Source: Odoribacteraceae bacterium
GTDB taxonomy: Bacteria > Bacteroidota > Bacteroidia > Bacteroidales > Marinifilaceae
DNA length: 37,056 bases
Direction: 5' to 3'
Assembly (NCBI GenBank): GCA_031266545.1
Contig: JAISAV010000272.1
Coordinates: 1-37,056 of the forward strand
Positions within the stretch are counted from its first letter, which is position 1; every line of letters begins with the position of its first letter. The notes under the pieces are model-generated. The model saw only the letters and a program-made list of their open reading frames with translations. It was not told the DNA's origin and did no database searches. The position numbers and the translations under genes were made by a program. Shown here piece by piece: positions 1,257-27,364 of this stretch.

Positions 1257-1286
1257 GTTGATCGTGTTTTAACAAGGGCGCGGGGA

Positions 1287-3407: not shown

Positions 3408-3413
3408 ACAAGG

Positions 3414-4454: not shown

Positions 4455-4487
4455 CTTTTTGTATTTTTCCCCGGCGGCGGGGGCGTG

Positions 4488-8219: not shown

Positions 8220-8256
8220 ACCCCGTCATCACAAAAGATACGCCCCCCCGGGTTAG
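8200..8256 (-). terminator. Intrinsic terminator of the hybrid two-component gene
   Basis: Perfect 8-base arms CTAACCCG / CGGGTTAG (8249-8256 and 8208-8215), read on the minus strand, are followed at once by eight T residues (8200-8207). The first arm overlaps the stop codon of the regulator gene (8253-8255). The loop is long (about 33 bases) and has G/C runs that may pair further. Confidence 0.75.
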
Positions 8257-12237: not shown

Positions 12238-12423
12238 ATGAAACACGCCGAAGAAAGTATAATCGATTGTCTCGCCCGTGCCGACGTGGCGGGGATGCGG
12301 ATGATGTTCGAGAACTATTATCAAGCGCTCTGCATCTTCGCCTTGCGTTACTGGAAATCGCGATTAAAACACAAGCATAAACCTCATTTCTATCTAATTC
12401 TTCTAACAAAACTACCTCAGTAG
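12238..12423 (+). pseudogene. N-terminal remnant of an ECF RNA polymerase sigma factor
   Basis: A 61-codon reading frame begins MKHAEESIIDCLARADVAG and continues to FENYYQALCIFALRYW near residues 25-39. This matches the start of sigma region 2 in Bacteroidota ECF sigma factors (a helix followed by F-x-x-Y-Y-x-x-L-x-x-F-A-x-R-Y). After residue 39 similarity ends in an AT-rich, basic tail (KSRLKHKHKPHFYLILL) that stops at 12423. Sigma region 2.2-2.4 and the whole of region 4 are absent, so it cannot work as a sigma factor. It is the only plus-strand coding trace in the window and is followed by a repeat cluster. Length and similarity are short, so the call is moderate. Confidence 0.6.
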
Positions 12424-12468: not shown

Positions 12469-12710
12469 CTTAACTTGATGGCATTGGGATCCAGCCTATG
12501 TTGCGGTAGAAGCAAGGCTCCAGCCTTGCAACGCAATAGATTTTGCAAGGCTGGAGCCTTGCTTTTAACTCGACGGAGGCTGGAGGCTCCGCCGAGCGGG
12601 TATTGTTTCTGCTTAAGTTGACGGCTTTGGGCTGGCGCCTTACCTTTAACGAGGCGTGATGAAGGCGTTATGCCGGGCGGGGAGTCTTGGGCTGGGAATT
12701 TGGTGATATC
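12469..12710. repeat. Cluster of palindromic intergenic repeats
   Basis: This non-coding stretch has two mutually inverted 18-base palindromes (12512-12529 and 12545-12562; arms GCAAGGCT/AGCCTTGC) and a third hairpin with the same GGCTGGAG core at 12569-12596. It is bordered by two copies of a motif close to CTTAAGTTGACGGCATTGG (12469-12487 and 12612-12630) that recurs near 25.8 and 26.0 kb. Such arrays may act as REP-like elements or as terminators of the aminotransferase gene, whose stop is at 12709. The AT-rich piece at 12424-12468 shows nothing else. Confidence 0.75.
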
Positions 12711-13797
12711 ACGAATGTATGACCTCTTCCAGCACGTCGAGCGCCGCTGCAACGTGTGTCATGTTGGCCTGCGAACCCATGTGCCCGATTCGAAAAACCT
12801 TGCCCGATAGCGCGCCGAAGTTGTTACCGACGACCACCCCGCGCGCCCGCAACGCCGCGTCTAACCGCTCCCAGCCCATCGCCTCCGGCACGCGGATGGC
12901 CGTGACCGTCGGGGAGCACGTCGCGCTCGCCACCGGGTAAAGTGGCAAGCCCATCCCGGTCACGCGTTCGCGGCAATACGCGGCCACCGACCGGTGACGC
13001 TCGAAACAAGTCTCCACTCCCTCCTCCACGACCAGCTCGCACGCCCGTTTCAGTTGGGCCAGCCCGTGCCAGTAGGGCGTGTAGGGGAAAGCCCCCGTCT
13101 CCAACGCCTCCGCGAAGGGCAACAGGGCCTCGTAACCGGGATAAGCCACTTCCCGCACGCGCCGCCACGCCGCCTCGCTCACCGAGAGAAACGACAGGCT
13201 CGCCGGCGCGGAAAGGCACTTCTGCGAGGCGCCGAGCGCCAGGTCCACGCGCCAATCATCCACGGCCACCGGCACGCCGCCGACCCCGGAAATCGTGTCC
13301 ACGCACAGCAGCGGCACGCCGTACTTCTCCTTTAACTCGCCGATCTCCCGCACCGGGTTGAGCGTCCCGCTCGGCGTCTCGCAGTGTACCAGCGTGATCA
13401 TCTTCGGGGAGAACCCGCGGATCGCCCGCTCCACGCGCTCGAAGTCGTACACGGTTTCGTCAAACCCGTATTCCACCGTCCGCGTCTCGCACCCGATCGA
13501 TTCTGCCATCGTCGCGAAGCCCTGGCCGAACATCCCCGTGGAGATCACCAGCACCTTGTCTCCCGGCGCCAGCGTGCTCTTCAGCGCCGTCCACAGCGCC
13601 AGCATCCCCTCGCCCGTCTGGATCACCACCCGCGAGCGGGTGCCCAGCAGCCGTTGCAGCAGCGCCTCCGTCTCCTTGTACATCGCGAAATATTCCGGCT
13701 CCACCATCCCCGACCCGTAGTTCGTCAACGCGGCCTCCCGGATCGCCAGCGGCACGGAGACCGGGCCGGGAACCATCGAAATCATGTATTCTTTCAT
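12709..13797 (-). CDS. Class V PLP-dependent aminotransferase (alanine-glyoxylate type)
   Basis: This 362-residue cytoplasmic enzyme belongs to the alanine-glyoxylate/serine-pyruvate aminotransferase group of fold-type I, class V PLP enzymes. I chose the ATG at 13797 because MKEYMISMVPGPVSVP matches the family's N-terminal MxPGPxxVP motif, while the open frame further upstream is low in similarity and lies in repeat-like DNA. The PLP lysine is K193 in GASQKCLSAP, and D167 in CVDTISG contacts the PLP ring nitrogen. The C-terminal FRIGHMG segment is also typical. It could use alanine, serine or phosphoserine-related donors; related family members act on 2-aminoethylphosphonate. It is a single-gene unit flanked by repeat clusters on both sides, with no obvious link to the neighbouring glycan genes. 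Confidence 0.9.
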   Translation of the reverse strand: MKEYMISMVPGPVSVPLAIREAALTNYGSGMVEPEYFAMYKETEALLQRLLGTRSRVVIQTGEGMLALWTALKSTLAPGDKVLVISTGMFGQGFATMAESIGCETRTVEYGFDETVYDFERVERAIRGFSPKMITLVHCETPSGTLNPVREIGELKEKYGVPLLCVDTISGVGGVPVAVDDWRVDLALGASQKCLSAPASLSFLSVSEAAWRRVREVAYPGYEALLPFAEALETGAFPYTPYWHGLAQLKRACELVVEEGVETCFERHRSVAAYCRERVTGMGLPLYPVASATCSPTVTAIRVPEAMGWERLDAALRARGVVVGNNFGALSGKVFRIGHMGSQANMTHVAAALDVLEEVIHS

Positions 13798-13856
13798 TGT
13801 CGTCACTTTATAATTACGTGGCTCGCGAGGCGGGACACCCCCTCTTGAAGCGCGCG

Positions 13857-13864
13857 CGAATGTA
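13857..13864 (-). promoter_or_regulatory. Possible -7 element of the aminotransferase gene
   Basis: On the minus strand TACATTCG is one base from TAnnTTTG and lies about 60 bases before the ATG at 13797. No clear -33 element is seen. It falls inside the open upstream extension of the frame, which supports the downstream start. Confidence 0.4.
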
Positions 13865-13982
13865 CGTGAATTTTTGATAATACGGGCTACCAACTCCCCC
13901 CTCAACTCGCCGTTCATGCAAAAAGTATATCATCCCCCGAATTCACGGATGATGCATGGCGTATTGCTGGGGGTATGTGCAA

Positions 13983-14153: not shown

Positions 14154-15560
14154 TTACCGCGTCCGCTCGTTGTAGACCTGAAATTCGGAGATGGAGGGGA
14201 CGTCGGAGCGGGATTCCACGAGGAGCCGCACGCGATCGCCATACACGCGGTCGAAGCGGTGGATCTTGACGCGGTCGTTGTTCTCGCCGGTGAAGAGGGG
14301 TTTCCAGTCGCCGTTCTCGCGGTACTCGAGGCGGTAGCGCTTGACGCGCGGTTTCTCGTTCTCGACGATGACGACGGCGTTAAAGGCGCGTTCCCCGTCG
14401 AGGTAGACCTCGAACCACGGGTTCTCGACGACGTCGATGGAGGTCCAGGCGGTCGAGAAGTCGTCATCGACGGCGAAGTCCATGATGCTCATGTCCCAGC
14501 TCCAGCTCGCGTCGGCCGGCCGGTTCTTGGCGAGGTTCGAGGAGATGATGGGGGCGTGGTTGGGGGGAAGCACGGCCGTCGGGCCGTCGTTTTTCCATCG
14601 TTTGCCGATCGCGGCGAGGGTGGCGAGGGCGTTGTCGTCGATCAGCCCCTCGCGGTTGGGGGCCACGTTGAGGATAAAGTTACAGTAGGCGTTGTTCATC
14701 GGGATGATGTTCTCCTCGACCATCTTCACGGGATCCTTCGTGGGGCGGTCGGGGAAGCGGGTTTTCCAGAACCAGTTCTGGTTGACCGGCAGGCAGGAGA
14801 GCGCCGGGAGGCGGTTGCGTTCCTTCGAGATGTGCTGGCCGGCCCCCTGCTCGTAGGACTTGATGTCCGTGTAGTAGAGGACGTCGGACGGGTACTTCGC
14901 CGCGTTGAGGTCCATCACGAGGCAATTCGGCTGGAGGGACTTGACGAGGAGGTAGATCTCCTCGAACGGGATCGCGTCGTAGGAGATGCGCGACCACGGG
15001 GCGTCCCACCCGTCGATGACGAGCGCCGTGACCTCGCCGTAGTTGGTGAGCAGCTCGCGCAACTGCGCCTTGACCATCTCGACGTGCTCGCGGGAGATCC
15101 ATCCCGGGCGCAGCCTGTGGTGGGTGTCGAGGATCGAGAAGTAGAGCATGACCTTCAGGCCCCGCGCCCGGAAGGCGTCGACGTACTCGCGCACCACGTC
15201 GCGGCGGAGCGGGGAGTTCATCACGTTGTAGCCGGTCGTCTTCGTGTCCCAGATGCAGAAGCCGCTGTGGTGCTTCGTCGTCAGGCACCCGTAGGACATG
15301 TTGGCCGAGGCGGCGGCGGCGGCCCATTGCGCGCAGTCGAGGCGCGTCGGGTTAAAGAGGGCGGCGGGCGCTTCCGGGTCGGCCCAGTCTTCTTTCATGA
15401 AGGTGGGGATGTTGAAGTGGATGAACATGCCGAAGCGCAGGTCGACGAACTCTTGCTGTAGCTGGTGCAGCGATTTGGCGGGCTGCCGTTGTTGTTGTGC
15501 CCGGCAGGCCGTCGCGAGCGTGAGGCCCGCGAGGAGGAGAAGGAGGATGGTTTTCTTCAT
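14154..15560 (-). CDS. Alpha-L-fucosidase GH29 with C-terminal F5/8-type module
   Basis: This 468-residue exported fucosidase differs in sequence from the one at the left edge. Residues 1-19 form a signal sequence ending in LATAC, which may be lipidated at C19. The GH29 barrel covers about 30-340, with FGMFIHFN at 43-50, TKHHSGFCIWDT at 95-106 and VIDGWD at 181-186, where D183 is the expected nucleophile. Residues about 345-468 resemble a discoidin/F5-8 C carbohydrate-binding domain (SWDMSIMDFAVDDDFSTAW near its start). It lies 105 bases downstream of the DUF4998 lipoprotein and has its own good -7 element. It is the only glycosidase seen in this SusC/D locus, so fucose removal is likely central to the target glycan. 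Confidence 0.93.
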   Translation of the reverse strand: MKKTILLLLLAGLTLATACRAQQQRQPAKSLHQLQQEFVDLRFGMFIHFNIPTFMKEDWADPEAPAALFNPTRLDCAQWAAAAASANMSYGCLTTKHHSGFCIWDTKTTGYNVMNSPLRRDVVREYVDAFRARGLKVMLYFSILDTHHRLRPGWISREHVEMVKAQLRELLTNYGEVTALVIDGWDAPWSRISYDAIPFEEIYLLVKSLQPNCLVMDLNAAKYPSDVLYYTDIKSYEQGAGQHISKERNRLPALSCLPVNQNWFWKTRFPDRPTKDPVKMVEENIIPMNNAYCNFILNVAPNREGLIDDNALATLAAIGKRWKNDGPTAVLPPNHAPIISSNLAKNRPADASWSWDMSIMDFAVDDDFSTAWTSIDVVENPWFEVYLDGERAFNAVVIVENEKPRVKRYRLEYRENGDWKPLFTGENNDRVKIHRFDRVYGDRVRLLVESRSDVPSISEFQVYNERTR

Positions 15561-15665: not shown

Positions 15666-16808
15666 TCACTCGACCACCTCGAGGTTAATCTCGGAGATCT
15701 GGATGGCATCTTTCCCGGGTATCGCTTGCGTGCCGATGAATTTCAGGAAACGCGCGTCCGCCGGTTCGGCTAGCGTCACCACGCGGGATTTCTCGTCGCC
15801 CACGAAGTGGACCGTCGCGACCTTCTGGAAGTTCGCCGGGTCGAGCGGGTCGAGCGCGGCGTTGGCGCATGCCCACACCTCGACGATCTCGGTCTCCTCC
15901 CGCCACGAGTCGTCGGGGCGCACCAGTTCCACGGAAACGACGGTGAAGATTCCCTTGAGATCGACGGTGATCCACTGCGGGAGCGTCTCCCCGCTCCACC
16001 CGCTGTGCCAGCCGGTGTCGTTTCGCCCGTCGAAGGCGCGCCAGCCGTCGCCGAAGCCGCCGTAATCCCCGTGGGAGGTCTCCTCGACGAGCACCCAGTT
16101 AGCCTTGTTCAGCACCAAGCGGGCGAAGTTCATGACGACCGGCGCGGTACGGAACGTGTCGATGGAGGTCGCCACCGGGAGGTAGAGCGTGGAGTAGGAG
16201 AACTCCCGGCCGGGGACGAAGTCCGCGAACACGTGCCCCGCGGCGGTGGGCGGGATCAGGACGTTCGTCGTCACGCCGTCGCGGTTGACGTAGCGGAACT
16301 CGACGCCGACGGAATTGTCCGCCACGCCCCACGAGATGGTCACGTTGTCCGCGTCCGGGTCGATCACCTGCGTGGTAATCGCCCGGTTGGAGAGCGAGGC
16401 GGCGTAGCGCTCGCCGTAGCAGGTGACGGACTTCTCGGTCTTCAGGGAGACGCGCTGGTAGAGGTCGCGCGTCCTGATCTCGAAGATGTGGCCGCGCTCG
16501 GAGAGGCCGTCGATGATGACGGACATCTTCTGCCGCCCGCCGCCCGCGTCGCGGACGATGGGGACGACGAGCGAGTCGGCGCGCTCGTCCCAGTAGATGA
16601 TGCAGTCGACGAGCTTCGGGTCGGCGTTGATCTCCCACTCGAGCTTCACGCGGCCGTTGCCGGGGAAGAGCTGGAGGGAGTCGGCGCGGCCGATGTAGAT
16701 GGTCTCGCCGCGGTCGAGGTAGTCTTGATAGATGTCGGTCATGTTGTTGCAGGCCGCGCAGAGGAGCGCGGGCAGTAACAAGGCGTGGAGGATATTTCTG
16801 CTTTTCAT
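15666..16808 (-). CDS. DUF4998 and discoidin-domain surface lipoprotein
   Basis: This 380-residue lipoprotein (signal ending CAAC, lipidated C20) has an N-terminal DUF4998-like part about 22-230, built of fibronectin-like beta domains (GRADSLQLFPGNGRVKLEW near the start). A C-terminal F5/8-type C domain covers about 245-380, with SHGDYGGFGDGWRAFDGRNDTGWHSGW and WITVDLKGIFTVVSVEL. It is probably a surface glycan-binding protein in the SusC/D complex, binding sugar through the discoidin domain; no catalytic motif is seen. It follows the DUF4959 gene by 18 bases in the same operon. Confidence 0.88.
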   Translation of the reverse strand: MKSRNILHALLLPALLCAACNNMTDIYQDYLDRGETIYIGRADSLQLFPGNGRVKLEWEINADPKLVDCIIYWDERADSLVVPIVRDAGGGRQKMSVIIDGLSERGHIFEIRTRDLYQRVSLKTEKSVTCYGERYAASLSNRAITTQVIDPDADNVTISWGVADNSVGVEFRYVNRDGVTTNVLIPPTAAGHVFADFVPGREFSYSTLYLPVATSIDTFRTAPVVMNFARLVLNKANWVLVEETSHGDYGGFGDGWRAFDGRNDTGWHSGWSGETLPQWITVDLKGIFTVVSVELVRPDDSWREETEIVEVWACANAALDPLDPANFQKVATVHFVGDEKSRVVTLAEPADARFLKFIGTQAIPGKDAIQISEINLEVVE

Positions 16809-16826: not shown

Positions 16827-18044
16827 TTAGTTCACGGGTTTCCCCCAGAAGCGAAGCTCGCCGATGTGCACCTCGGTACTGCCGGAGCAGGTCTCGGCGA
16901 TGCAGAGGCGGATGTAGCGCACGGGCGCGCTGGCGGAGAAGTTGCTCTCGAATCCAGCGCGGGCGAAATCGAGATCCTCGTTCGTGGACTCCTCGGAGAT
17001 CTCCTTGCCGGAGGGTTTCTTGACCTCGTGGGTATCGAGGAGCGTCCAGTGGCCGTCGGTCTCCCACGGGCCTCCCTGTTGCCAGTAGGCGGCGTCGGAG
17101 GGCGCGTAGCTCACGTCGTCGGTACCCCAAATTTCCCACACGCGGGGGTTGTAGTGGGCGTAGAAGTACTGCCCGCCGCGGTGCCAGAGCTTCATGCGGC
17201 TGAGGATCGCCAGTTGCCCGAGGTCGACGGTGATGTAGGTGGGCTTGGTGAGGTAGCGCTCGGAGTGCCAGCCGTTGAACTCCTCGCTCAAGACGCCGTC
17301 GAACATGTTGAGGAACGTGAAGCCGTAGGCGTTGATGTCCGTCGTGTTATCGGCGGGCAGGGGCCTCATGCGGTAGGCCGTCCGGTCGAGTTCCTGCTCG
17401 AAGAGAGGAATCTGTCGCGTGACGAGCGTGTCGGAGAGGTTGCCCCAGCGATCCCTGACGTACACGCCGAAATCGCGCGCGAGCGTGTCCATGCCGCGGA
17501 GGGAGTAGGCGCCCTCCTTGACGCTGGTGTAGAGGACGTCCCTCTCGACGAGGGCGCCCGTGGAGTCTTGCGCCATGAGGTAGACGGAGACCTCCGCCTG
17601 GTTGTCGTTCTGCCAGTCAACGCGGATGCCGCCGAAGTCGGGGATAACGGTGAAGGATTTGATGATATCCCAGATGCTGGGCGCGAGGGGCTTGACGCGC
17701 GTGGGGGTGGGCTTGGAGGCGTTGCCGCTCCTGTCGACGCTGACCAGCTCGACGGGGTGGTAGAGGGTGTCGCCGAATCCCTCGATCTTGAGGGAGTTGG
17801 AGTACAGCGAGGCTTTCACGTCGCGTGGCACGCCGCCGCGTTCGTACCTGGCCATGACGTAGAGGAGATCCTCGTTCGTGGGCAGGTTATAGCGGATGAT
17901 GGCGCCGCCGGGGATGCCGGTGGCTTGCACGCCGGTGATCTCGTCGGGGGCGGCGCCGTCGGTGGCGGGTTGGCCGAGGGGTTCCTCGCCGCAGGAAGCG
18001 CAGAGGGCGATGGCGATGATGCAGGGTATAAGATATTGTTTCAT
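16827..18044 (-). CDS. DUF4959/DUF5126/DUF5000 surface lipoprotein
   Basis: This 405-residue protein has a signal ending LCASC, with C18 lipidated. The order fits DUF4959 (about 25-120, with ATGIPGGAIIRYNLP), DUF5126 (about 120-225) and the discoidin-like DUF5000 (about 245-405, with TYITVDLGQLAILSRMKLWHRG and GELRFWGKPVN at the end). Such proteins usually follow SusD in Bacteroidota loci and are taken to be carbohydrate-binding partners at the cell surface. It starts 21 bases after the susD stop and is followed after 18 bases by the DUF4998 gene. No enzyme residues are visible. Confidence 0.9.
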   Translation of the reverse strand: MKQYLIPCIIAIALCASCGEEPLGQPATDGAAPDEITGVQATGIPGGAIIRYNLPTNEDLLYVMARYERGGVPRDVKASLYSNSLKIEGFGDTLYHPVELVSVDRSGNASKPTPTRVKPLAPSIWDIIKSFTVIPDFGGIRVDWQNDNQAEVSVYLMAQDSTGALVERDVLYTSVKEGAYSLRGMDTLARDFGVYVRDRWGNLSDTLVTRQIPLFEQELDRTAYRMRPLPADNTTDINAYGFTFLNMFDGVLSEEFNGWHSERYLTKPTYITVDLGQLAILSRMKLWHRGGQYFYAHYNPRVWEIWGTDDVSYAPSDAAYWQQGGPWETDGHWTLLDTHEVKKPSGKEISEESTNEDLDFARAGFESNFSASAPVRYIRLCIAETCSGSTEVHIGELRFWGKPVN

Positions 18045-18065: not shown

Positions 18066-19994
18066 TTATTGCCATCCGGGATTCTGGATGATGTTCTTGT
18101 TCACGTCGATGACGCCCTGGCGAATGGGCCAGAGGTTGTGCTTGTAGGTAAACTCGGGGGCGTAGTAGGTGACGACCTGATAATAGTCGGCCTCGTTGGC
18201 GCCCTTGACGTTCCAGCCCCTGAGCGGCTCGTTCATGCGCGTCTCGAGTTGTTTCCAGCGCCGGATGTCCCAGAAGCGTTGACCCTCGAGGGCCAGCTCG
18301 ATGAGGCGCTCGTGGCGGGTGATCTCCAGCATCCCCTCGCGGGAGGAGGGCTTGTCGGGACGGGTGAAGGAGTACAGGTTCCAGCTCCGCTCGCAATCGT
18401 CGAGACCGGCGCGGCGGCGCACCCTGTCGACCAGCTCCCGGGCCTCGGCGATGCTGCCGCCGGACTCGAGCAGCGTCTCGGCGCGGAGCAGCAGGAGATC
18501 GGCCAGGCGGATGATCGGGAAGGTGTAGGCGCGGGGGGAGAAGTTGTTGTTGGAGACGACGGACTCGTACTGGACGAGTTTCTTGCCGAAGTACCCGGTC
18601 TGGGAGTAGCGGTCGGCGGCGGTGATGCCGGAGGCCTGCCCGCTCTTGGCCTGTATGTAATAGAGTTCCTCGGAGTCGTCGGCCTTTCCGCCGCCGTACC
18701 AGACGCCGCCGTCAAAACCGAGCGTGGCGTAGAAGCGCGGCTCGCGGTCGAAGTGCAGGTTGGCCGTCGTGTAGCCGTCGCGGATATAATAAGGGGCGGA
18801 GCCGTCGGCGACGCGCGTTTTATAGCGGTCGGGGTAGTTCCAGTTCTTGTCCTCGTTGATGGGGACGCCGTTCTTGGAATAAAACAGCTCGGCGATGCGG
18901 AGGCTGGGGGCCATCTCGCACACGATGGAGGTCATCGAGGCTTGCACGGCCTCGGTGCGGGCCGTGGAGACGCGTTGCAACTGGTCGCAACTGCCGATGG
19001 CCCCCCAGATGATTTCCGCGTTCCAGTTGTCGGTGACGGCGCCGCGGAGGTTCATCTGCGTCCGGATCTCGTCGCTGTGGACGTAGAGGGACTGGAAGTT
19101 GTCGTACAGGCGGATGTTGCCCGCGTCGCAGTACTCGAGGGCCTCGCGGCAGGCGGTGTCGGCCCGCGCCCACTTGTCGGCGTCGTACGCCGGGAAGAGT
19201 TGCACGCCGCGGTTATCGCGGAGGCTCGTGTAGTCGTCGTTCCCGTTGAACAGGGGGCTGGCGGCCAGCGCGAGCACCTTGGCCTTGACGGTGGCGACGA
19301 TGGGCTTGGTGGCGCGTCCCAGCTCGGTGGTTGTCCGCTGGATGCTCATCGGCAGTTCGGGGACGAGGGCCTCGTCGAGCAACTGAACGATGTAGTTGAC
19401 GACGGAGTCGACCGGCTCGCGGTAGCTCCTGACCTCCTCCGGGGAGGCGTTGACGGGCAGGTTGACGCGAATGACGGGGATGGGGCCGTAGAGCTGGAAG
19501 AGCCAGTAATGGTAATAAGCCTTGAGGAACTTGACCTCGGCGATCCAGCGGTACTTCTCGTAGTCGTCGAGATCGTTGGGACGGTCGATGTTCTCGAGGA
19601 AGATGTTGCAGTCGCGCAGGGCCTGGAATATGGATTTCCCGTTGCCGCCGATGGAACTGATGTTCTCGCCGTTCCAATAGTTGACGTAGGGGTTCTCCGT
19701 GTTCTGTAGCCCGCGGACGATGTAGAACGGGAAGTCGAAGCCGAAGTATCCCTGCCGGGTGTTGATGAGGATGATATTCTCGTCACCCCCGACGAACGCG
19801 GGGTTGGCGCTCGGCGATTGATGCTCGGGCAGGTAACTATAGCAGGTGTAGAGGTATCGCTCGGCGCTGACGCGGTCTTGGAAGGCGTGGTTGATGGTGG
19901 GAAGGTCGTCAGGGATCACGTCGAGGTATTTGCCGCAGGCGGCCGCGGTCGCGCAGAGCGCCGCGAGCAAGGTGTGTTTAATAATTCTTTTCAT
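18066..19994 (-). CDS. SusD/RagB-family glycan-binding lipoprotein
   Basis: This 642-residue outer-membrane lipoprotein forms the lid over the SusC transporter and binds the glycan before uptake. The signal ends ATAAAC (C20), and GKYLDVIPDD follows, the typical SusD start. TPR-like helices occupy the N-terminal half (FQDRVSAERYLYTCYSYLPEH; WIAEVKFLKAYYHYWLFQLYGPIPVI near 165-190). The C-terminal half has FPIIRLADLLLLRAETLLE and the ending RWKQLETRMNEPLRGW, all typical of the family. It starts 12 bases after the susC stop. The substrate cannot be read from this sequence. Confidence 0.97.
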   Translation of the reverse strand: MKRIIKHTLLAALCATAAACGKYLDVIPDDLPTINHAFQDRVSAERYLYTCYSYLPEHQSPSANPAFVGGDENIILINTRQGYFGFDFPFYIVRGLQNTENPYVNYWNGENISSIGGNGKSIFQALRDCNIFLENIDRPNDLDDYEKYRWIAEVKFLKAYYHYWLFQLYGPIPVIRVNLPVNASPEEVRSYREPVDSVVNYIVQLLDEALVPELPMSIQRTTTELGRATKPIVATVKAKVLALAASPLFNGNDDYTSLRDNRGVQLFPAYDADKWARADTACREALEYCDAGNIRLYDNFQSLYVHSDEIRTQMNLRGAVTDNWNAEIIWGAIGSCDQLQRVSTARTEAVQASMTSIVCEMAPSLRIAELFYSKNGVPINEDKNWNYPDRYKTRVADGSAPYYIRDGYTTANLHFDREPRFYATLGFDGGVWYGGGKADDSEELYYIQAKSGQASGITAADRYSQTGYFGKKLVQYESVVSNNNFSPRAYTFPIIRLADLLLLRAETLLESGGSIAEARELVDRVRRRAGLDDCERSWNLYSFTRPDKPSSREGMLEITRHERLIELALEGQRFWDIRRWKQLETRMNEPLRGWNVKGANEADYYQVVTYYAPEFTYKHNLWPIRQGVIDVNKNIIQNPGWQ

Positions 19995-20006: not shown

Positions 20007-23000
20007 TTAAAAGTTTACGTTCAGGCCGAGATTGTAGACCCGTTGCAGGGGATACCCGAGGCCGTTACCGGCCATCTCGACGTCCCACAGCTTGAATTTG
20101 CTCAAGGATAAGAGATTCGTGCCGCTCAAGTAGATGCGCGCCTTCTCGAGGAACATCCGCTTGCTGAGGCGGTCGGGGAGCGTGTAGCCGATTTCCGCCG
20201 ACTTGAGGCGGAGGAAGGCGCCGTTTCGCATGAACCACGTGTTCAGTTGCGTGTTGTTGGCGACGACCTCGTTGGAGAGGCGGGGCCACAGGGCGTACAG
20301 GTTGCGGTCTTCCTCCGACCAGTGATCGTCGGCGTAGACGCGCAGCAAGGCCCGGTTACCGACGAAGGGCGCGGTGGCGTCCGGGTCTATCCAGAAGGAG
20401 GAGCGGGCGGATCCCTGGAAGAAGGCGGAGAGGTCCCAGCCCCCGCGACCGTAGGAGAAGCCGAAGCCGTAGTTGATCTCCGGCGTGGTAGGGAAGCCGA
20501 CCTGCACGCCGTCGGCGGCGTTGATGATGCCGTCGTAGTTGATGTCCTTGTACTTGATGTCGCCGGCCTTGTAGGGGCCGAAGAGCTGCTCGGGAGAATT
20601 ACGGACATCCTCCTCGTCCACGAAGAGGCGCTCGGCGATCAACCCCCACTGCTGGGAGATCTTGGCGCCGATGCGCGAGCGCCACGGGGCGCCCTCGTAG
20701 CTGGGTTCCTCGAACACCTTGTACTTGGCGGTGGCGTAGGTAAACGTGCCGCGGAAGGTGACCCACGCGTGGTTGTCGAAGACATGGGAATAGTCCAGCG
20801 AAAGCTCGAGACCGCTGGCCTGCGTCTCGCCGATGTTGGCCTGCGGGTAGGCTTGTAGTCCCATCGTGTTGGGGACGTAAGAGCGATACTGGAGGATGCG
20901 GGTGCGGTGCTCGCGGAAATAGTCGAGTTGCAGGTCGAGATCGCCGAGCACGCCCACCTCGAGGCCGTAGTTTTGCTTGTAGGCGGTCTCCCACGTGATT
21001 TTCTCGTCGGCGTAGCGGGAGATGGTGACCCCCTGCCGGTAGCCGTCGTAGCTGTTTATGTCGTACCCGAAATTATAGGAGCGGCTGTCGTCCTCGAGGT
21101 TGACCTTGGAGAGGTAGAAGAAGCGGTCGTCGCTGGAACCGATTTGGTCGTTGCCGACCATGCCGTAGGTGGCTCTCAGTTTCACCTTGTTGAAAGTCTC
21201 CTTCCAGGGCCAGAACTTCTCGTTGGAGAGATACCACGCAACGCCTGCGGAGGGGAAGAAACCCCAGCGCTCGTTCTTGGCGAAGCGCTCGGAGCCGTTG
21301 TACCCGAAGTTAAACTCCGTGAAGTAGCGCCCGTCGTAGGCGTAGGTAAAGCGTCCCGACACGCCGAGGTTGCGGTGGGGCAAGGAGTTGGTAAGCGTCC
21401 CGGCGTTGCCGTCGAGGGCCTCGCGCGCGGTGAGGACGAGCAGGCCGCTGAACGCGTGCTTGTCGTGCGCCACGCGGTCGTATTGCAGAACGCCCTCCAT
21501 GTAGAGGGTACTGGAGGCCAGCTTGTCGCCCTCGTCATAGCTGAGCCACGGCCGGCCGGCGTCGGGGTTGATGCGGAACAGCTTGTAGGCGCCCGTCTCG
21601 CGGTCATAAGCGGAGACACGGTACCAGAAGGGGGTGTAGGCGCGCTTGAGTTCGAAGTAGGAATCGCGCGTGGTGCTCAGCATGAACCGGGCATTTAGTC
21701 CCTCGGTGACGAAGTTAAAATTCTGTTTCAACTCCAGTTGAGCGAGGATGCTGGAGCGGGAATACTCCTTGTATCCCTTCACGAGGTCGGCGTAAGGGTT
21801 GAGGTAATCGCCGCCACCGGCGTTGCCGAAGAGGATGTGCTCGGTGGTGAGATTGGCCTCGTCCGGCGCGTAGTAGGCGGGAAAGAGAACGGGATTCGTC
21901 TTGATCACCTTGTTGTACAGGTCGGCGCCGCCGTCGAGCGGCCCGCGGTAGTCGTCGAAGGCGGCGTGGAGGCGGGTGACCAGCTCGGTGGAGGCGGAGA
22001 GGTTGATGTTGACGTTCGTGTGGAGGGTATACTTCTTGAGGTCGATGTTGCTGTTGAAATTATTCCGCTTGTCGACTTTCAGCACGCCATTGTCCTGCGC
22101 GAAGGAACCGGCCACGTAGTAGCGCGCCACGCTACCGCCGCCGCTGAGGTTGATGTTCACGCGCTGGTTAGAGGTCACCTTCTTGAAAAGCATGTCGTAC
22201 CAGTTGGTGGCCGGGTAGACGTAGGGATTCTCTCCCGCCCCCGTGCGGGCGATCTTCTCGCTGGAATAGGGCAACTCCCCGAGAGGGTTGCGCGTGAGCA
22301 CGGCCTCGTTGTGGAGCTTCATGTAGGTGATGGGGTCGGCCAGCTCGATATTTCGCGTGGGCATGGAGAAGGAGTTCTCGAATCGCGCGGAGACGCGACT
22401 CTTGCCCTCCCGCCCCTCCCGGGTGGTGACGAGGATGACGCCGTTCGCGCCGCGGGCGCCGTAGAGGGCGGTGGCCGTGGCGTCCTTCATGATGGAGAAG
22501 TTGGCGATGTCGTCGGGGTTCAGGTGGGAGAGCGCCGTGACGTTCATCTCCATGCCGTCGATCAGGATGAGCGGGTCCACCTTGCCCGACCCGAAGGAGG
22601 TGATGCCGCGGATGAAGAAGGAGGCGTTATCCTCCCCCGGCTCGCCGCTCCGCTGGTAAGAGATCAGCCCGGCGAGTTGCCCGGCGAAGGCGGTGGTGAG
22701 GTTGCTGGAAGGGACTCTCAAGTTGGAGGGGCTGATCGTCGTGATCGACCCGATGACGCTCTCCTTGCGCTGCTTGGCGAAGGCGACGACGGTGACCTCC
22801 TCCAGCTCGTCCGTCTTCGGCTTCAGTTGCACGGTGATCCACGTCTGCTCGCCCACGGGCACGGTCTGGGCCTGGTACCCGACAAACGAGATGAGCAGCC
22901 GCTCCTCCGGCGTCACGTCGATGACGAAGGAGCCGTCCACGTCGGTGCTTACCCCCCGCGTGGTGCCCTCCACGCGGAGCGTGACGCCGGGGAGGGGGGC

Positions 23001-23426
23001 GTTATTCTCGTCGATCACGCGGCCGGTGACCCGCTTGCGCGCCGGGCCTTGCTCGAGCACGACGGGCTTGACGGAGACGAGGATCTGGCGATCGTTGATC
23101 GCGTAAGCGTTGTTCGTTCCCTCGAAGAGCTTGTCGAGGATCTTGTCGACCGTCTGCCGCTCGACGTGGATGGTGACTCGCCGCCTCGTGTCGACGGCCT
23201 TGTCGTAGTAGAAGATGACGTACTCGCTATCTTTCTCGATAGCCTCGAAGACCTCCTTCACGGTCTTCTCCTTCAGGTTCATCGTGAAGAGCGTTGACTG
23301 GGCGTAACCGTTGCCCGCGTACGCGGCCCCGATACCCGTCAGCAGGAATAAGGTTGTTAGTTTCATAACCCGTGAAAAATTTCTAATTTTAACCGGATTC
23401 AAGCCAAGTGATCGTTTCTTTTTCAT
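20007..23426 (-). CDS. SusC/RagA TonB-dependent transporter with STN signalling domain
   Basis: This 1139-residue outer-membrane transporter imports oligosaccharides using TonB energy. The ATG at 23426 gives MKKKRSLGLNPVKIRNFSRV and then a signal peptide ending near AYAGNGYAQ (about 43). An STN domain covers about 48-115 (TVKEVFEAIEKDSEYVIFYY), a carboxypeptidase-like regulatory domain about 133-205 (VTGRVIDENNAPLPGVTL), the plug starts near 208 (EEVTVVAF) with the LILIDGMEM segment near 287-295, and the rest forms the barrel, ending in FKLWDVEMAGNGLGYPLQRV and YNLGLNVNF. An STN domain marks transporters that signal through a FecR anti-sigma factor, and a fecR gene lies in the same transcription direction upstream. 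A metallopeptidase gene lies between them. Confidence 0.97.
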   Translation of the reverse strand: MKKKRSLGLNPVKIRNFSRVMKLTTLFLLTGIGAAYAGNGYAQSTLFTMNLKEKTVKEVFEAIEKDSEYVIFYYDKAVDTRRRVTIHVERQTVDKILDKLFEGTNNAYAINDRQILVSVKPVVLEQGPARKRVTGRVIDENNAPLPGVTLRVEGTTRGVSTDVDGSFVIDVTPEERLLISFVGYQAQTVPVGEQTWITVQLKPKTDELEEVTVVAFAKQRKESVIGSITTISPSNLRVPSSNLTTAFAGQLAGLISYQRSGEPGEDNASFFIRGITSFGSGKVDPLILIDGMEMNVTALSHLNPDDIANFSIMKDATATALYGARGANGVILVTTREGREGKSRVSARFENSFSMPTRNIELADPITYMKLHNEAVLTRNPLGELPYSSEKIARTGAGENPYVYPATNWYDMLFKKVTSNQRVNINLSGGGSVARYYVAGSFAQDNGVLKVDKRNNFNSNIDLKKYTLHTNVNINLSASTELVTRLHAAFDDYRGPLDGGADLYNKVIKTNPVLFPAYYAPDEANLTTEHILFGNAGGGDYLNPYADLVKGYKEYSRSSILAQLELKQNFNFVTEGLNARFMLSTTRDSYFELKRAYTPFWYRVSAYDRETGAYKLFRINPDAGRPWLSYDEGDKLASSTLYMEGVLQYDRVAHDKHAFSGLLVLTAREALDGNAGTLTNSLPHRNLGVSGRFTYAYDGRYFTEFNFGYNGSERFAKNERWGFFPSAGVAWYLSNEKFWPWKETFNKVKLRATYGMVGNDQIGSSDDRFFYLSKVNLEDDSRSYNFGYDINSYDGYRQGVTISRYADEKITWETAYKQNYGLEVGVLGDLDLQLDYFREHRTRILQYRSYVPNTMGLQAYPQANIGETQASGLELSLDYSHVFDNHAWVTFRGTFTYATAKYKVFEEPSYEGAPWRSRIGAKISQQWGLIAERLFVDEEDVRNSPEQLFGPYKAGDIKYKDINYDGIINAADGVQVGFPTTPEINYGFGFSYGRGGWDLSAFFQGSARSSFWIDPDATAPFVGNRALLRVYADDHWSEEDRNLYALWPRLSNEVVANNTQLNTWFMRNGAFLRLKSAEIGYTLPDRLSKRMFLEKARIYLSGTNLLSLSKFKLWDVEMAGNGLGYPLQRVYNLGLNVNF

Positions 23427-23473
23427 ACTTTCGCGTTGTACAATTAATTCATGATTGTAAGTTAAGTGTGTAC

Positions 23474-23502
23474 CCCCGGGCGACATGCCAGTGTCCCCGG
23501 GG
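23474..23502. promoter_or_regulatory. GC-rich hairpin in the susC leader
   Basis: Arms CCCCGGG (23474-23480) and CCCGGGG (23496-23502), plus GACA/TGTC inside with one bulged base and a 6-base loop, make a strong stem. On the plus strand it is followed by ATTTTTAT, while on the coding (minus) strand the A-tract comes before the stem. It therefore does not look like a normal terminator for the upstream peptidase gene. It may be a leader structure that tunes susC, or a terminator for a plus-strand antisense transcript. A small inverted repeat TACAAT-N9-ATTGTA sits at 23439-23459. Confidence 0.5.
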
Positions 23503-23534: not shown

Positions 23535-24347
23535 TTATTTCACCGTCTTCCTGTAAGTCTGGTACTCCACCCACAGGGCGTCCACGTCGGCCGCCTCGCC
23601 GAGCGCGTGCTTGAAGGCGGCGGCAAAGTTCCACGGGTAGACGTGCAGGGCGGCCTGGTTGAACGCGTGCAGGAACTTGGCGTCCTTGTTCTTCTGCACC
23701 CAGCCGAGGAAGAAGCCCGTCGTGCGATAGCCGTCGAGGTAACTCCCGCCGGCGCCCACGTCGTTCTCCTTGAAGTAACCGGCAAGGTAGCGCACGGCAT
23801 CGGCCGTCCCCTCGATGCAGGCCCATATCTCGGTGTTACCCCCGTAGCCGCCGGGGGCGCGCGGCTCCAGCTGGTAGACGTGGGTCATCTCGTGGAGCAG
23901 GACGCCGGTGATCTCGTCGGCCACGCGGCTCGTGTCTTGGGTGTCGAGGAACGTGCTGCCGATCCAGCGGCAACTGAGGACGATCACGTTCCCCTCGCTG
24001 TCGCCCGTGGCGTAGGCCACGCCGTCGAAGTCCTCGAGGCGGATGTTCAGGTTACGCACCCGCGTGATCGAGTCGGCGGGCGACTCGTAGAGGACGGCGA
24101 GCACCTTGCGGGCGATCCCGGCGAAAAAGTCCGGGTCGTCGCGGACGATCGCGTCCGTGATCCGCCCGCCGGGGGTGGTGGCGGCCCGGTTCTCGAAGCG
24201 GATGTTCCCCGCGTCATACTCCTTCCAGATGTCCACCTCTTCCACGGGATCGGGTTCCGGTGGCGGTGGCGTCTCCCTGTCGCCGGAGCAGGCGATGAGG
24301 GCGGCGAGGCTCGTCACGAGGACGAGCGCGTGATGAAATTTTCTCAT
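23535..24347 (-). CDS. Basic secretory protein-like zinc metallopeptidase lipoprotein
   Basis: This 270-residue lipoprotein resembles the basic secretory protein (BSP) family of zincin-like peptidases. The start at 24347 is chosen because it gives a clean signal MRKFHHALVLVTSLAALIAC with lipidated C20, and because fecR ends only one base before it. After a Pro/Glu-rich linker comes FENRAATTPGGRITDAI at 51-67, a family hallmark. The zinc motif HEMTH is at 152-156, and W176-CIEGTADAVRYLAGYF follows, with E180 or D183 as a possible further ligand. DGYRTTGFFLGWVQ near 205-218 is typical of the C-terminal part. It should act at the cell surface or in the periplasm. Its position between fecR and susC suggests a role in degrading the glycoprotein that carries the target sugar, or in signalling; both are inference. 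Confidence 0.85.
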   Translation of the reverse strand: MRKFHHALVLVTSLAALIACSGDRETPPPPEPDPVEEVDIWKEYDAGNIRFENRAATTPGGRITDAIVRDDPDFFAGIARKVLAVLYESPADSITRVRNLNIRLEDFDGVAYATGDSEGNVIVLSCRWIGSTFLDTQDTSRVADEITGVLLHEMTHVYQLEPRAPGGYGGNTEIWACIEGTADAVRYLAGYFKENDVGAGGSYLDGYRTTGFFLGWVQKNKDAKFLHAFNQAALHVYPWNFAAAFKHALGEAADVDALWVEYQTYRKTVK

Positions 24348-24348
24348 G

Positions 24349-25548
24349 TTATGGCGTGTTCGTGATATGAATCTTTCCATCGAGGCGCTCCACGCGGACG
24401 GGAGCGACGCGCGCGAGGCCCTCGAGCACCTCCTCGAGGTGCGGCTTGAGTTCCAGCTTGCCGGAGCAGGTCATCTCGACCACCGCGGGGTCGCGCGTGA
24501 TCTCCTTCCCGTAGTAGTTGCCGAGGCGGTCGAGGATTTTATCCAGCGACGCGCCGTTAAAGTAGAGCAACCCATCCTTCCACGCGGCGTACTCCTGCAC
24601 GTCCACGCGGTCGATGGAGACGGCCCCGTCGCGGTACTCGAGGCGCTGGTCGGGGTGCAGGATGACCTCCTGCCGGGACGACGTCTTGACGTTCACCTTC
24701 CCCCGTTCCAGCACCACGGTGTTGGCCGTCGTGTCGCGGGCGGTCACGTTGAAGCGGGTGCCGAGCACCTCGATCTCCAACAAGCCGGTGTTGACGATGA
24801 AGGGACGCGCCTCGTCCGGGGCCACGTCGACGAAGACCTCCCCCTCCACGAAGAGTTGCCGCCGGTCGCCCGCCCACGTGACCGGGTACCAGACGTGCGA
24901 GCGGGCGTTAACCCACACCCGCGTGCCGTCCGGGAAGAGCACGGAGGAACGCTTGCCCACCGGCACGATCAGGTGGTTGTACGGCACGTCGCTGGCCTCG
25001 TCGCCGCCGCCGCTCTCGTCGCCGGTGACGGGGATGTCGTGCGCGTTGACGCTCACCTTGCCGCCGGGCGCGTGGCTGATCTCCACCTCCTCGCCGCGGA
25101 GGTGCTGCCGCGGCTGGCCGGCGAGGACGAGCACGACGTCATCGCTCTCCCCGGGTAGGAATCCCGTTCCCGTTTCCGTTCCCGCGACGACCGGCGGCTC
25201 CTCCTCCCGCCCGGGATAGAGGAGGACGCTTCCCGTGACGAGCGCGGCGATCCCCGCAGCCACCGCCAGCGCGAGGCGGGGGCGACGATGACGGGCGTTG
25301 CGGGCCTTGACGCGGTTCCACAACGCGAGGATCTCCTCGCCGGAGACCTCCTCCATCTCTTGCCTGATGACCATCAGAAAGTGCCGGGCGATCTCTATCT
25401 CCCGTTCCAGCGCGGGATCCCCGGCCGCCTCCCGCTCCCAGAAAGCGTTGCTCCCCGGCGCGGGATGGCGCGTGGAATCGAGGAAGAAATCATCCATCAA
25501 CAATTCCTCCGCGGTATACCCGTTGTATCTATTTGTCTTTTGCTTCAC
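24349..25548 (-). CDS. FecR-family anti-sigma factor
   Basis: This 399-residue inner-membrane protein holds an ECF sigma factor at the membrane until the STN domain of a partner transporter signals. The N-terminal cytoplasmic part (about 1-88) is helical, with FLMVIRQEMEEVSGEEILALWNRVKARN. One membrane segment lies at about 91-112 (LALAVAAGIAALVTGSVLLYPG). The FecR domain covers about 190-290 (VGKRSSVLFPDGTRVWVNARS; VEVLGTRFNV-like segment), and the C-terminal DUF4974 domain about 325-396 (LYFNGASLDKILDRLGNYYG). The chosen start is GTG; no in-frame ATG lies just upstream. The sigma gene normally found directly upstream is missing here; a 500-base repeat region takes its place. The stop and the next ATG are one base apart, so translation is coupled to the peptidase gene. 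Confidence 0.95.
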   Translation of the reverse strand: MKQKTNRYNGYTAEELLMDDFFLDSTRHPAPGSNAFWEREAAGDPALEREIEIARHFLMVIRQEMEEVSGEEILALWNRVKARNARHRRPRLALAVAAGIAALVTGSVLLYPGREEEPPVVAGTETGTGFLPGESDDVVLVLAGQPRQHLRGEEVEISHAPGGKVSVNAHDIPVTGDESGGGDEASDVPYNHLIVPVGKRSSVLFPDGTRVWVNARSHVWYPVTWAGDRRQLFVEGEVFVDVAPDEARPFIVNTGLLEIEVLGTRFNVTARDTTANTVVLERGKVNVKTSSRQEVILHPDQRLEYRDGAVSIDRVDVQEYAAWKDGLLYFNGASLDKILDRLGNYYGKEITRDPAVVEMTCSGKLELKPHLEEVLEGLARVAPVRVERLDGKIHITNTP

Positions 25549-25593
25549 GATGCTTGGTAATACATTTCCCCCATAACACGAAAAGACAATTAT

Positions 25594-25806
25594 CTACTCA
25601 CTTTCTCGCCGCGTTTCCGTGTTTTTTTTCACCGCGGGCCGGGGCAAGGTGCGCGGGAGGTCACCCGATGCAGTTTTACTTATTATAACCTGAGTTCGGG
25701 ATAAGAAGTGATATAAATCCATGATGAATCGTGTATTTATTGCCCGTAGGGCATCCATATCAATAGAAAAACGGCCTTTTCTCCCTCGCAACCCCGTCAG
25801 GGCATA
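25594..25806. other. Non-coding gap with a possible dispersed intergenic sequence
   Basis: No gene is supported here. An open frame of 65 codons on the minus strand has no recognisable family and overlaps an AT-rich stretch around 25670-25770 (TTATAACCTGAGTTCGGGAT and onward) that resembles intergenic repeats of Bacteroidota as far as I can recall. No promoter for fecR was identified with confidence, although it must lie in 25549-25700. Confidence 0.4.
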
Positions 25807-26031
25807 GCCGTCAGGTTAAGGGCTGAAGGCCCGCCGAGCAATAGCGTAGGGCAACGCCCTACGAATAGTCACCCGATGGATAACAAGCAGGCTGAAAGCC
25901 TGCGAGCCAATACAATACAACACTATGCTATTGCTTACGCCCCTTCAGGGCTTGGTGAATGACATGATCCGGTTCGTGGGGCGTTGCCCCACGCTATTGC
26001 TTGGCGGGCCTTCAGCCCTTAAGTTGACGGC
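25807..26031. repeat. Symmetric palindromic element with 41-base inverted ends
   Basis: Left arm 25807-25847 and right arm 25991-26031 are inverted copies differing at about three positions. Each arm leads into a matching hairpin: CGTAGGGC-AAC-GCCCTACG at 25845-25863 and CGTGGGGC-GTT-GCCCCACG at 25975-25993. The centre holds GCAGGCT-GAA-AGCCTGC (25887-25903) and CCCTTCAGGG (25941-25950). There is no coding capacity. The outer ends carry the motif CTTAAGTTGACGGCATTGG (26018-26036 on the plus strand, and its complement at 25803-25820) that also occurs at 12469 and 12612. It may be a non-autonomous mobile element or a composite of REP-like units. Confidence 0.75.
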
Positions 26032-26052
26032 ATTGGCCAACCGGCCAGCGCG

Positions 26053-27324
26053 TTAATCGAGGTAGCGCTTGATGGTTTGCTCGCGATCCGCGCCCACGGA
26101 GACGATCCGGATGGGGACGGATAGTTCTTCTTCCAAGAAGGTCAGGTAGTTGTTTAATTCTTCCGGGAATTCGTCTTCCGAGGTGACGCGCGTTAAAGGA
26201 GTCTTCCAGCCCGGTAGTTCCACGTAGACCGGTTCGATGTTACTTTCTTGCAGGTCGAAGGGAAATTCGGTCGTTTCCTCCCCGTCGACGCGGTAGGCGA
26301 CGCAGACCTTGATCGTGTCGAAGGTGTCGAGGACGTCGCCTTTCATCATGAACAGGGAGGTGACCCCGTTGAGGCGTATGGCGTAGCGAAGGGCCACGAG
26401 ATCCAGCCAGCCGCAACGACGGCGACGGCCGGTCACCGAGCCGAACTCGTGCCCGATCTCGCAGAGGGCGTCGCCCGTCGCGTCCTTTAATTCCGTGGGG
26501 AAGGGGCCGCTGCCCACGCGCGTGCAGTAGGCTTTAAAGATGCCGAAGACCTGACCGATCCTGCCCGGGGCGACGCCCAGGCCGGTGCACGCGCCGGCGC
26601 ATATCGTGTTGGAGGAGGTCACGAAGGGGTAAGAGCCGAAGTCCACGTCGAGCATGGTGCCCTGCGCCCCCTCGGCCAGCACGCCCCGTCCCTCATCGAT
26701 GAGGCGGTTGATGAAGTGCTCGCCGTCCACGAGGCGGAAGCGTTTCAGGTAATCGACGCCTTCCATCCACTCGCGCTCGACCTCCCGAAGGTCGTAGGAG
26801 AAGCCAAGGCTCGCCAGCAGGCGCTCGTGCCGCGCCTTCGCGGCGGCGTACTTGGCCTCGAAGCCGTGCAGCAAGTCCCCGACGCGGAGGCCGTCGCGTC
26901 CCACCTTGTCGGTGTAAGCGGGGCCGATGCCCCGGCCGGTGGTGCCCACGCGGGCATCCCCCTTGGCGGCCTCGCGGGCGGCGTCGAGGAAGCGGTGGGT
27001 GGGGAGGATCAGGTGCGCCTTTTTCGAGATGTATAATTTGCCCGGCAGGTCGTGGCCAGCCTTGACCAGCGCCTCGGCCTCGGCCTTGAAGAGGGCCGGG
27101 TCAAGGACGACCCCGTTGCCGATGATGTTCACCTTGTCACCCTGAAAGATCCCAGAGGGGATCGAGCGAAGCACGTATTTCTCGCCGTTAAACTCGAGGG
27201 TGTGCCCCGCGTTGGGTCCCCCTTGAAAACGAGCGACCACGTCGTATCCCGGTGTTAAAACGTCCACTATTTTTCCCTTCCCCTCGTCTCCCCATTGCAG
27301 TCCCAACAAAACATCTACTTTCAT
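26053..27324 (-). CDS. purA: Adenylosuccinate synthetase
   Basis: PurA joins IMP and aspartate with GTP to make adenylosuccinate, the first committed step from IMP to AMP. I chose the ATG at 27324 (423 residues), which gives MKVDVLLGLQWGDEGKGK; an in-frame ATG nine bases upstream is also possible. The GDEGKGK loop is at 12-18 with catalytic D13, and H41 lies in GGPNAGHTL. TTGRGIGPAYTDKVGR near 128-143, AEGAQGTMLDVDFGSYPFVTSS near 216-237 and GRRRRCGWLDLVALRYA complete the family motifs. It follows fur by 40 bases, the rsh-fur-purA order common in Bacteroidales. Confidence 0.98.
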   Translation of the reverse strand: MKVDVLLGLQWGDEGKGKIVDVLTPGYDVVARFQGGPNAGHTLEFNGEKYVLRSIPSGIFQGDKVNIIGNGVVLDPALFKAEAEALVKAGHDLPGKLYISKKAHLILPTHRFLDAAREAAKGDARVGTTGRGIGPAYTDKVGRDGLRVGDLLHGFEAKYAAAKARHERLLASLGFSYDLREVEREWMEGVDYLKRFRLVDGEHFINRLIDEGRGVLAEGAQGTMLDVDFGSYPFVTSSNTICAGACTGLGVAPGRIGQVFGIFKAYCTRVGSGPFPTELKDATGDALCEIGHEFGSVTGRRRRCGWLDLVALRYAIRLNGVTSLFMMKGDVLDTFDTIKVCVAYRVDGEETTEFPFDLQESNIEPVYVELPGWKTPLTRVTSEDEFPEELNNYLTFLEEELSVPIRIVSVGADREQTIKRYLD

Positions 27325-27364
27325 GATTATCATTTATATATTTAAACAGGTTTCTCTCGCGGTG

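Follow-up and report, generated by a model that had tools for sequence, protein, structure and literature searches.

Organization of the locus

The window, by which we mean the whole stretch of 37,056 nucleotides analysed from an Odoribacteraceae genome, carries on its minus strand purA, a gap, fecR, a BSP gene, STN-susC, susD, the genes for a DUF4959-DUF5126-DUF5000, a DUF4998-F5/8 and a GH29-F5/8 protein, a class-V aminotransferase gene and a gene for a hybrid two-component regulator, in this order (Table 1). The TAA stop codon of fecR is followed by one C and then by the ATG of the BSP gene, and the likely SusC start at 23426 lies 108 nt past the BSP stop codon. The susC-susD pair, the genes for the putative glycan-binding lipoproteins and the GH29 gene lie on a single strand, as expected of a PUL, and their order is kept in contig C43 of the congener G002. 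The FecR domains (PF04773 and PF16344) and the STN domain (PF07660), by which a surface-signalling system is recognized, are both present. The first-pass annotation was correct in the coordinates and content of its BSP entry, that is, the lipoprotein ORF with its HEMTH motif, the coupling to fecR and the STN-susC gene next to it. A hairpin is visible by eye between the BSP gene and susC in both species; it folded no better than shuffled sequences (z -1.51 and -0.55).

Table 1. Features of the window around the BSP gene
Feature	Position	Strand	Evidence and remarks
purA	26053-27333	-	ORF; ends at 26053
Dispersed REPIN-like palindrome, two inverted copies, taking up much of the purA-fecR gap	25800-26038	.	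66-nt arms, 88% complementary
Promoter-like stretch GTGAGTAGATAATTGTCTTTTCGTGTTA 5' of fecR	25574-25601	-	Position and match in G002:C2; putative function
fecR-like anti-sigma factor	24349-25548	-	GTG start; VLGTRF; PF04773 66 bits, PF16344 (FecR_C) 37 bits
BSP (PF04450), putative zinc metallopeptidase, lipoprotein	23535-24347	-	270 aa; Pfam 135.4 bits (cut-off 23.8, E 3e-39), residues 50-262, profile 7-207 of 207
SusC with N-terminal STN	20007-23486	-	Likely true start 23426; PF07660, PF13715 (CarbopepD_reg_2), PF07715 (Plug), TIGR04056 (OMP_RagA_SusC) 938 bits
SusD	18066-19994	-	PF07980 191.9 bits
DUF4959-DUF5126-DUF5000 lipoprotein, probable surface glycan-binding protein	16827-18044	-	Pfam; solved relative 7m1b 'Galactose-binding-like protein', E 7e-48
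DUF4998 + F5/8 type C lipoprotein	15666-16808	-	Pfam
GH29 alpha-L-fucosidase + F5/8 type C domain	14154-15560	-	PF01120 147 bits; solved relatives
Class-V aminotransferase	12709-13917	-	Nearest pyridoxamine-pyruvate transaminase models, 220/600 bits
Hybrid two-component regulator	8253-12185	-	

A fucosidase had been named as the only glycosidase of the locus. This holds for the conserved gene run, in which the GH29 protein is the sole glycosidase, but not for the window, which also holds a second GH29 (3-1256) and a GH2 (1287-3407) further off, past the hybrid two-component gene. Together with a PfkB kinase and a DUF4861 protein, they make up a piece of another sugar locus at 3-5621. No GH92 was present, next to the BSP gene or elsewhere, among the window proteins searched against Pfam. 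The aminotransferase scored far below the cut-offs of the transaminase models, and none was seen 3' of GH29 in the congener contig.

BSP as a putative zinc peptidase

The BSP protein has the lipobox LIAC, with SGDRE after the cleavage mark; the post-cysteine sequence of SusD from the same locus (CGKYLD) differs from that of BSP. The HEMTH motif occupies residues 152-156 (window 23894-23880), and E179, whose codon starts from 23813, is a candidate third ligand. H152, E153, H156 and E179 were invariant in all of the 39 aligned BSP sequences. Disrupted zinc ligands, which the first-pass annotation had named as evidence against a functional peptidase, were thus not what we found, and the gene looks intact by sequence.

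No PDB chain matched BSP by sequence at E 0.1. An AlphaFold model was obtained with a mean pLDDT of 89.5 and a pTM of 0.82. When this model was searched with Foldseek, no match was found at E 0.001, and the best matches were peptidase domains of clostridial collagenases, from E 0.002. Alignment with VIA-align 2 gave Z 12.3 (rmsd 3.8, 199 residues) with tricorn factor F3, an M1 aminopeptidase (1z1w), and Z 11.2 (rmsd 3.7, 202 residues) with lugdulysin of M30 (7bb8). BSP therefore resembles the catalytic domain of these peptidases in its modelled fold, although it is only ~10-13% identical to them and the other M1 domains are absent. Since the model aligns to both M1 and M30 peptidases, BSP fits a gluzincin-type zinc peptidase, and because the fold resembles gluzincins, E179 probably serves as the third zinc ligand.

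The window BSP is 75.8% identical to that of G002:C43. The dN/dS value between the two species was 0.235 for BSP, and the values of the other six genes ranged from 0.118 (GH29) to 0.347 (the C-terminal part of FecR). BSP and the C-terminal part of FecR are under purifying selection.

The PF04450 family also includes the plant PR-17 proteins. According to PMC9322406, a hydroxamate probe for metalloproteases labels PRp27 in a HExxH-dependent manner, and a barley BSP homologue cleaved neither casein nor gelatin. The plant protein is an apoplastic immunity protein with neither a lipoprotein nor a PUL context, unlike the BSP of the window.

Conservation and rarity of the gene order

The order fecR-BSP-susC was found in two of the six genomes of the genus, the window genome and G002. 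Contig C43 of the latter starts within fecR and continues with BSP, susC, susD, D4959, D4998 and GH29, which is the same seven-gene run. The gap between fecR and BSP is 3 nt in G002 versus one base in the window, indicating that the tight coupling is kept. The other fecR-susC gaps in the genus, as measured from ORF ends, are shorter than the BSP-susC gap of the window (18, 29 and 33 nt in L054-L056). BSP itself is patchily distributed: the six genomes of the genus carry two copies (window genome), three (G002), one (G001) and none (three others), and BSP is carried by 17 of the 56 genomes of the family and by 16 of 393 genomes sampled evenly across the order.

To score the neighbourhoods, the nearest neighbours within 700 bp were labelled with 13 home-made models in 145 BSP segments, some of which count twice owing to overlapping loci. 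FecR upstream together with SusC downstream was observed in two segments only, those of the window and G002:C43. Among 80 named GTDB Bacteroidales BSP loci, FecR was adjacent to BSP in none and present anywhere in the locus in four. Viewed from the side of FecR, the next labelled gene 3' of it in 38 non-identical rows was SusC in 26, BSP in two and another FecR frame in one, with nine rows cut or unlabelled. As far as we searched, the order is confined to part of one genus. It had been called unusual, which these counts bear out; the absence of the order from relatives, which had been put forward as grounds for dismissing it, applies only in part, as two of the six genomes of the genus have it.

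Origin of the window copy

A quick tree was built from 115 BSP rows, 35 of which have no labelled neighbour owing to the small number of models. The copies of the window and G002:C43 grouped in it as a single branch (99*, stem 0.92), close to the other BSP copies of the genus. The next larger starred set around this pair had seven rows; these included a copy linked to sigma, another linked to GH92, and the two copies of the genus that are linked to thioredoxin. A flagged long-branch join groups the window pair with a second pair from the genus, so that only the pairing of the window copy with C43 is safe and its placement among the other copies of the genus is provisional. The window BSP appears to be a genus-specific paralogue residing in a fucosidase PUL without GH92.

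The copies of the genus occur in three contexts, which are next to fecR (window and C43), 3' of genes for a PKD-like and a thioredoxin-like protein (C226 and C124), and 5' of a sigma-fecR pair (C2). In G002:C124 (L047:3016-3684) and in L041:3-773, BSP ends a run of DUF4843-type, PKD-like and thioredoxin-like genes; the C124 copy has one in-frame TAA and may be decaying. A BSP 40% identical to that of the window was seen in L094, a MAG titled Akkermansia muciniphila (Verrucomicrobiota), and was placed among Bacteroidales copies, which reflects either transfer or mis-binning.

fecR and the missing sigma gene

No ORF for a sigma factor was present at 25549-26052, the ~505-nt gap between purA and fecR, and fecR therefore has no sigma gene beside it. 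A relic of the G002 sigma gene was searched for in this gap by tblastn and blastn with no match above chance, and the best match of the congener sigma factor in the window genome was only 37% identical. The 28-nt core of the REPIN-like repeat in the gap occurs in 35 copies in the window genome, and in none in the five congeners or in the backwards control; other opposed pairs of the repeat lie ~150-170 nt apart (C118 and C249). Since the assembly is 73% complete and the junction contains this dispersed repeat, the absence of the sigma gene applies to the assembly and may not extend to the organism. For the same reason, loss, relocation, mis-assembly and lack of assembly of the sigma gene are inseparable. 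Any claim of signalling by this locus is limited accordingly. In the congener G005 (L202), the frame after purA runs convergent to it and was read from its translation as purC.

In G002, contig C2 carries a BSP gene directly 5' of a sigma-fecR pair. The fecR of C2 is cut by the contig end at the position of window residue 102, and that of C43 is cut by the contig start at residue 112. The N-terminal half of the C2 FecR is identical to the window FecR at 53 of 99 positions with a score of 252, and the next best FecR scored 100. The 28-nt stretch GTGAGTAGATAATTGTCTTTTCGTGTTA occurs without mismatches at two sites in the six genomes of the genus, in the window and in the sigma-fecR interval of G002:C2, and the backwards control gave one match in G002; by its position, it may be called promoter-like. 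We infer that C2 and C43, which were not joined, are the two flanks of one fecR, in which case the G002 order across the contig break would be BSP-sigma-fecR-BSP-susC. A PHP-type gene (read from its translation) lies 5' of the first BSP gene in C2. It had matches in all five congeners and none in the window assembly, in which the region around this gene may simply be unassembled. The BSP, FecR and sigma models gave no match around the PHP-type gene in the short loci of the four other congeners.

A truncated N-terminus of an ECF sigma factor was seen at 12238-12360(+), divergent from the hybrid two-component gene and followed by unrelated sequence. It had no Pfam match, and its best kin was a G001 protein (54% over residues 1-39, E 1.5e-9). 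It was considered as the missing partner of fecR and rejected, since by its best match it belongs to a sigma lineage other than that beside fecR in G002:C2.

The window FecR keeps VLGTRF, a GT motif of the self-cleavage type. This motif was found in 28 of the 38 FecR rows with a simple pattern and in four with a stricter one, some rows being cut by locus ends.

Association of BSP with GH92

GH92 enzymes are alpha-mannosidases active on N-glycans and mannans. Of the 80 named loci, 59 contained a GH92 gene, which lay no more than 700 bp from BSP in 57. In 14 of the 80 (L058, L075, L081, L102, L106, L110, L114, L115, L120, L121, L126, L127, L128 and L129), GH92 and BSP were within a single stop-free frame. 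Pfam assigned Glyco_hydro_92N, Glyco_hydro_92 and BSP to one frame of 1002 or 1009 aa at L045:740-3745 and L046:9348-12374. Judged from the reading frames, these are natural fusions. Both counts use all of the 80 loci, including L073 (identical to G002:C124) and L091 (within G026), both of which were excluded from the neighbour rows and from the BSP tree. The remaining 21 loci had no GH92 in reach, indicating that other uses of BSP exist.

The adjacency and the single frames make BSP look like a glycoprotein-foraging peptidase, and in view of the action of GH92 on N-glycans, the most plausible target of BSP in this family is the protein bearing N-glycan- or mannan-type glycans. The link between GH92 and BSP was not named in the title or the start of the abstract of the open-licence PMC papers that we found.

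Discussion

The window BSP probably serves a PUL that forages on glycoproteins; as its protein-cutting enzyme, it would trim a glycoprotein or glycopeptide. In the proposed mechanism, BSP, a predicted zinc peptidase, would be exported as a lipoprotein and cleave or trim back the peptide moiety of fucosylated glycoproteins or glycopeptides, acting beside the GH29 fucosidase and the two F5/8-type or galactose-binding-like lipoproteins. The product would be imported by SusCD, and the STN domain of SusC would signal this uptake to FecR. GH92 is the usual partner of the family to which the window copy belongs, and this copy would have come to sit between fecR and susC. This interpretation is built on the family, the metal-site residues, the gene order and its conservation in the congener, purifying selection, and the association and fusion with GH92. 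The activity, the substrate and the cellular side of BSP, as well as a role of its position in co-expression only, are predictions of the proposal. The location of the BSP gene, at the end of the operon that carries the regulator and not near the fucosidase gene, counts against the proposal, as does the lack of cleavage of casein and gelatin by the barley homologue.

The first-pass annotation had suggested that BSP is a surface peptidase that opens a fucosylated glycoprotein such as mucin. The glycoprotein part of this suggestion gains indirect support from the frequency with which GH92 adjoins BSP or shares its frame, and mucin is one candidate substrate among many. The named loci resemble that of the window in the BSP family and the invariant metal-site residues, and they are often in or near SusCD loci. 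In most of them GH92 is a neighbour or fusion partner of BSP, and in none is FecR next to it, whereas the window copy follows fecR and has GH29 but no GH92. Since this PUL lacks GH92, the substrate is transferred from the family pattern only indirectly.

It had also been suggested that BSP is a protease within the signalling chain. In the Fec-type systems (FecI-FecR-FecA of E. coli, IutY of P. putida) and the sigma-anti-sigma-SusC systems, the FecR domain, the GT motif and an STN-bearing TonB-dependent transporter are shared with the window, which differs in having a peptidase gene between fecR and the transporter and no sigma gene in cis. According to PMC8144685, E. coli FecR cleaves itself at the GT motif without an enzyme, is then trimmed, and receives the last cut from RseP; the trimming protease is not identified there, and neither, in PMC5411451, is the site-1 protease of FoxR and FiuR, which is not Prc. 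BSP could fill such a place as a dedicated site-1 protease that trims the periplasmic domain of FecR upon ligand uptake, after which a site-2 protease would free the sigma factor, and its direct coupling to fecR in both species and its location 5' of the sigma-fecR pair in G002, which BSP genes may bracket, would suit this role. We nevertheless regard it as improbable. FecR is far more often followed by SusC than by BSP, most BSP loci are without FecR, and the window FecR retains its self-cleavage-type motif and has no sigma gene in cis. Moreover, the window genome has 28 FecR matches versus two of BSP, which means that FecR has no general need for BSP. On these grounds the signalling suggestion is weakly supported. 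Even less probable is a combination of both roles, in which a foraging glycopeptidase was recruited as the periplasmic site-1 protease, so that the same enzyme reads the presence of glycopeptide and the transport signal; the BSP genes that seem to bracket sigma-fecR in the congener are what it would account for.

The place of the gene could also have been selected for expression and not for contact with FecR: an ordinary PUL enzyme with low basal expression alongside the regulator would act as a scout that releases the inducing glycopeptide. The gaps to fecR, one base and 3 nt as against 108 nt to susC, agree with this, as do the closer fecR-susC pairs elsewhere in the genus, but the hairpin between BSP and susC is no better than shuffled sequence in either species and susC may share the transcript, and we consider such a scout enzyme unlikely. 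A still smaller chance, comparable to that of the dedicated site-1 protease, is given to mere insertion, in which BSP was recombined between fecR and susC and tolerated, the order is meaningless, and the FecR system is crippled by the loss of sigma. The lack of a sigma gene beside fecR, the REPIN-like repeat at the junction and the convergent purC after purA in G005 would all be accommodated. It is disfavoured by an order and short gaps that are kept in the congener at 76% BSP identity, and by the purifying selection on BSP and the C-terminal part of FecR. Foraging is preferred over these alternatives, because relatives beside or fused to mannose-removing enzymes make a use in feeding likelier than a new signalling switch. 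The mechanism is most likely an ordinary foraging one, and what is unusual is the position of the gene in the operon.

If the signalling interpretation were true, BSP would be a candidate for the protease that starts FecR processing, a question left open in PMC8144685 and PMC5411451. If the foraging interpretation is true, glycoprotein loci of Bacteroidales would have in BSP a widespread protein-cutting arm that has drawn little notice. The link between GH92 and BSP is the more general lead.
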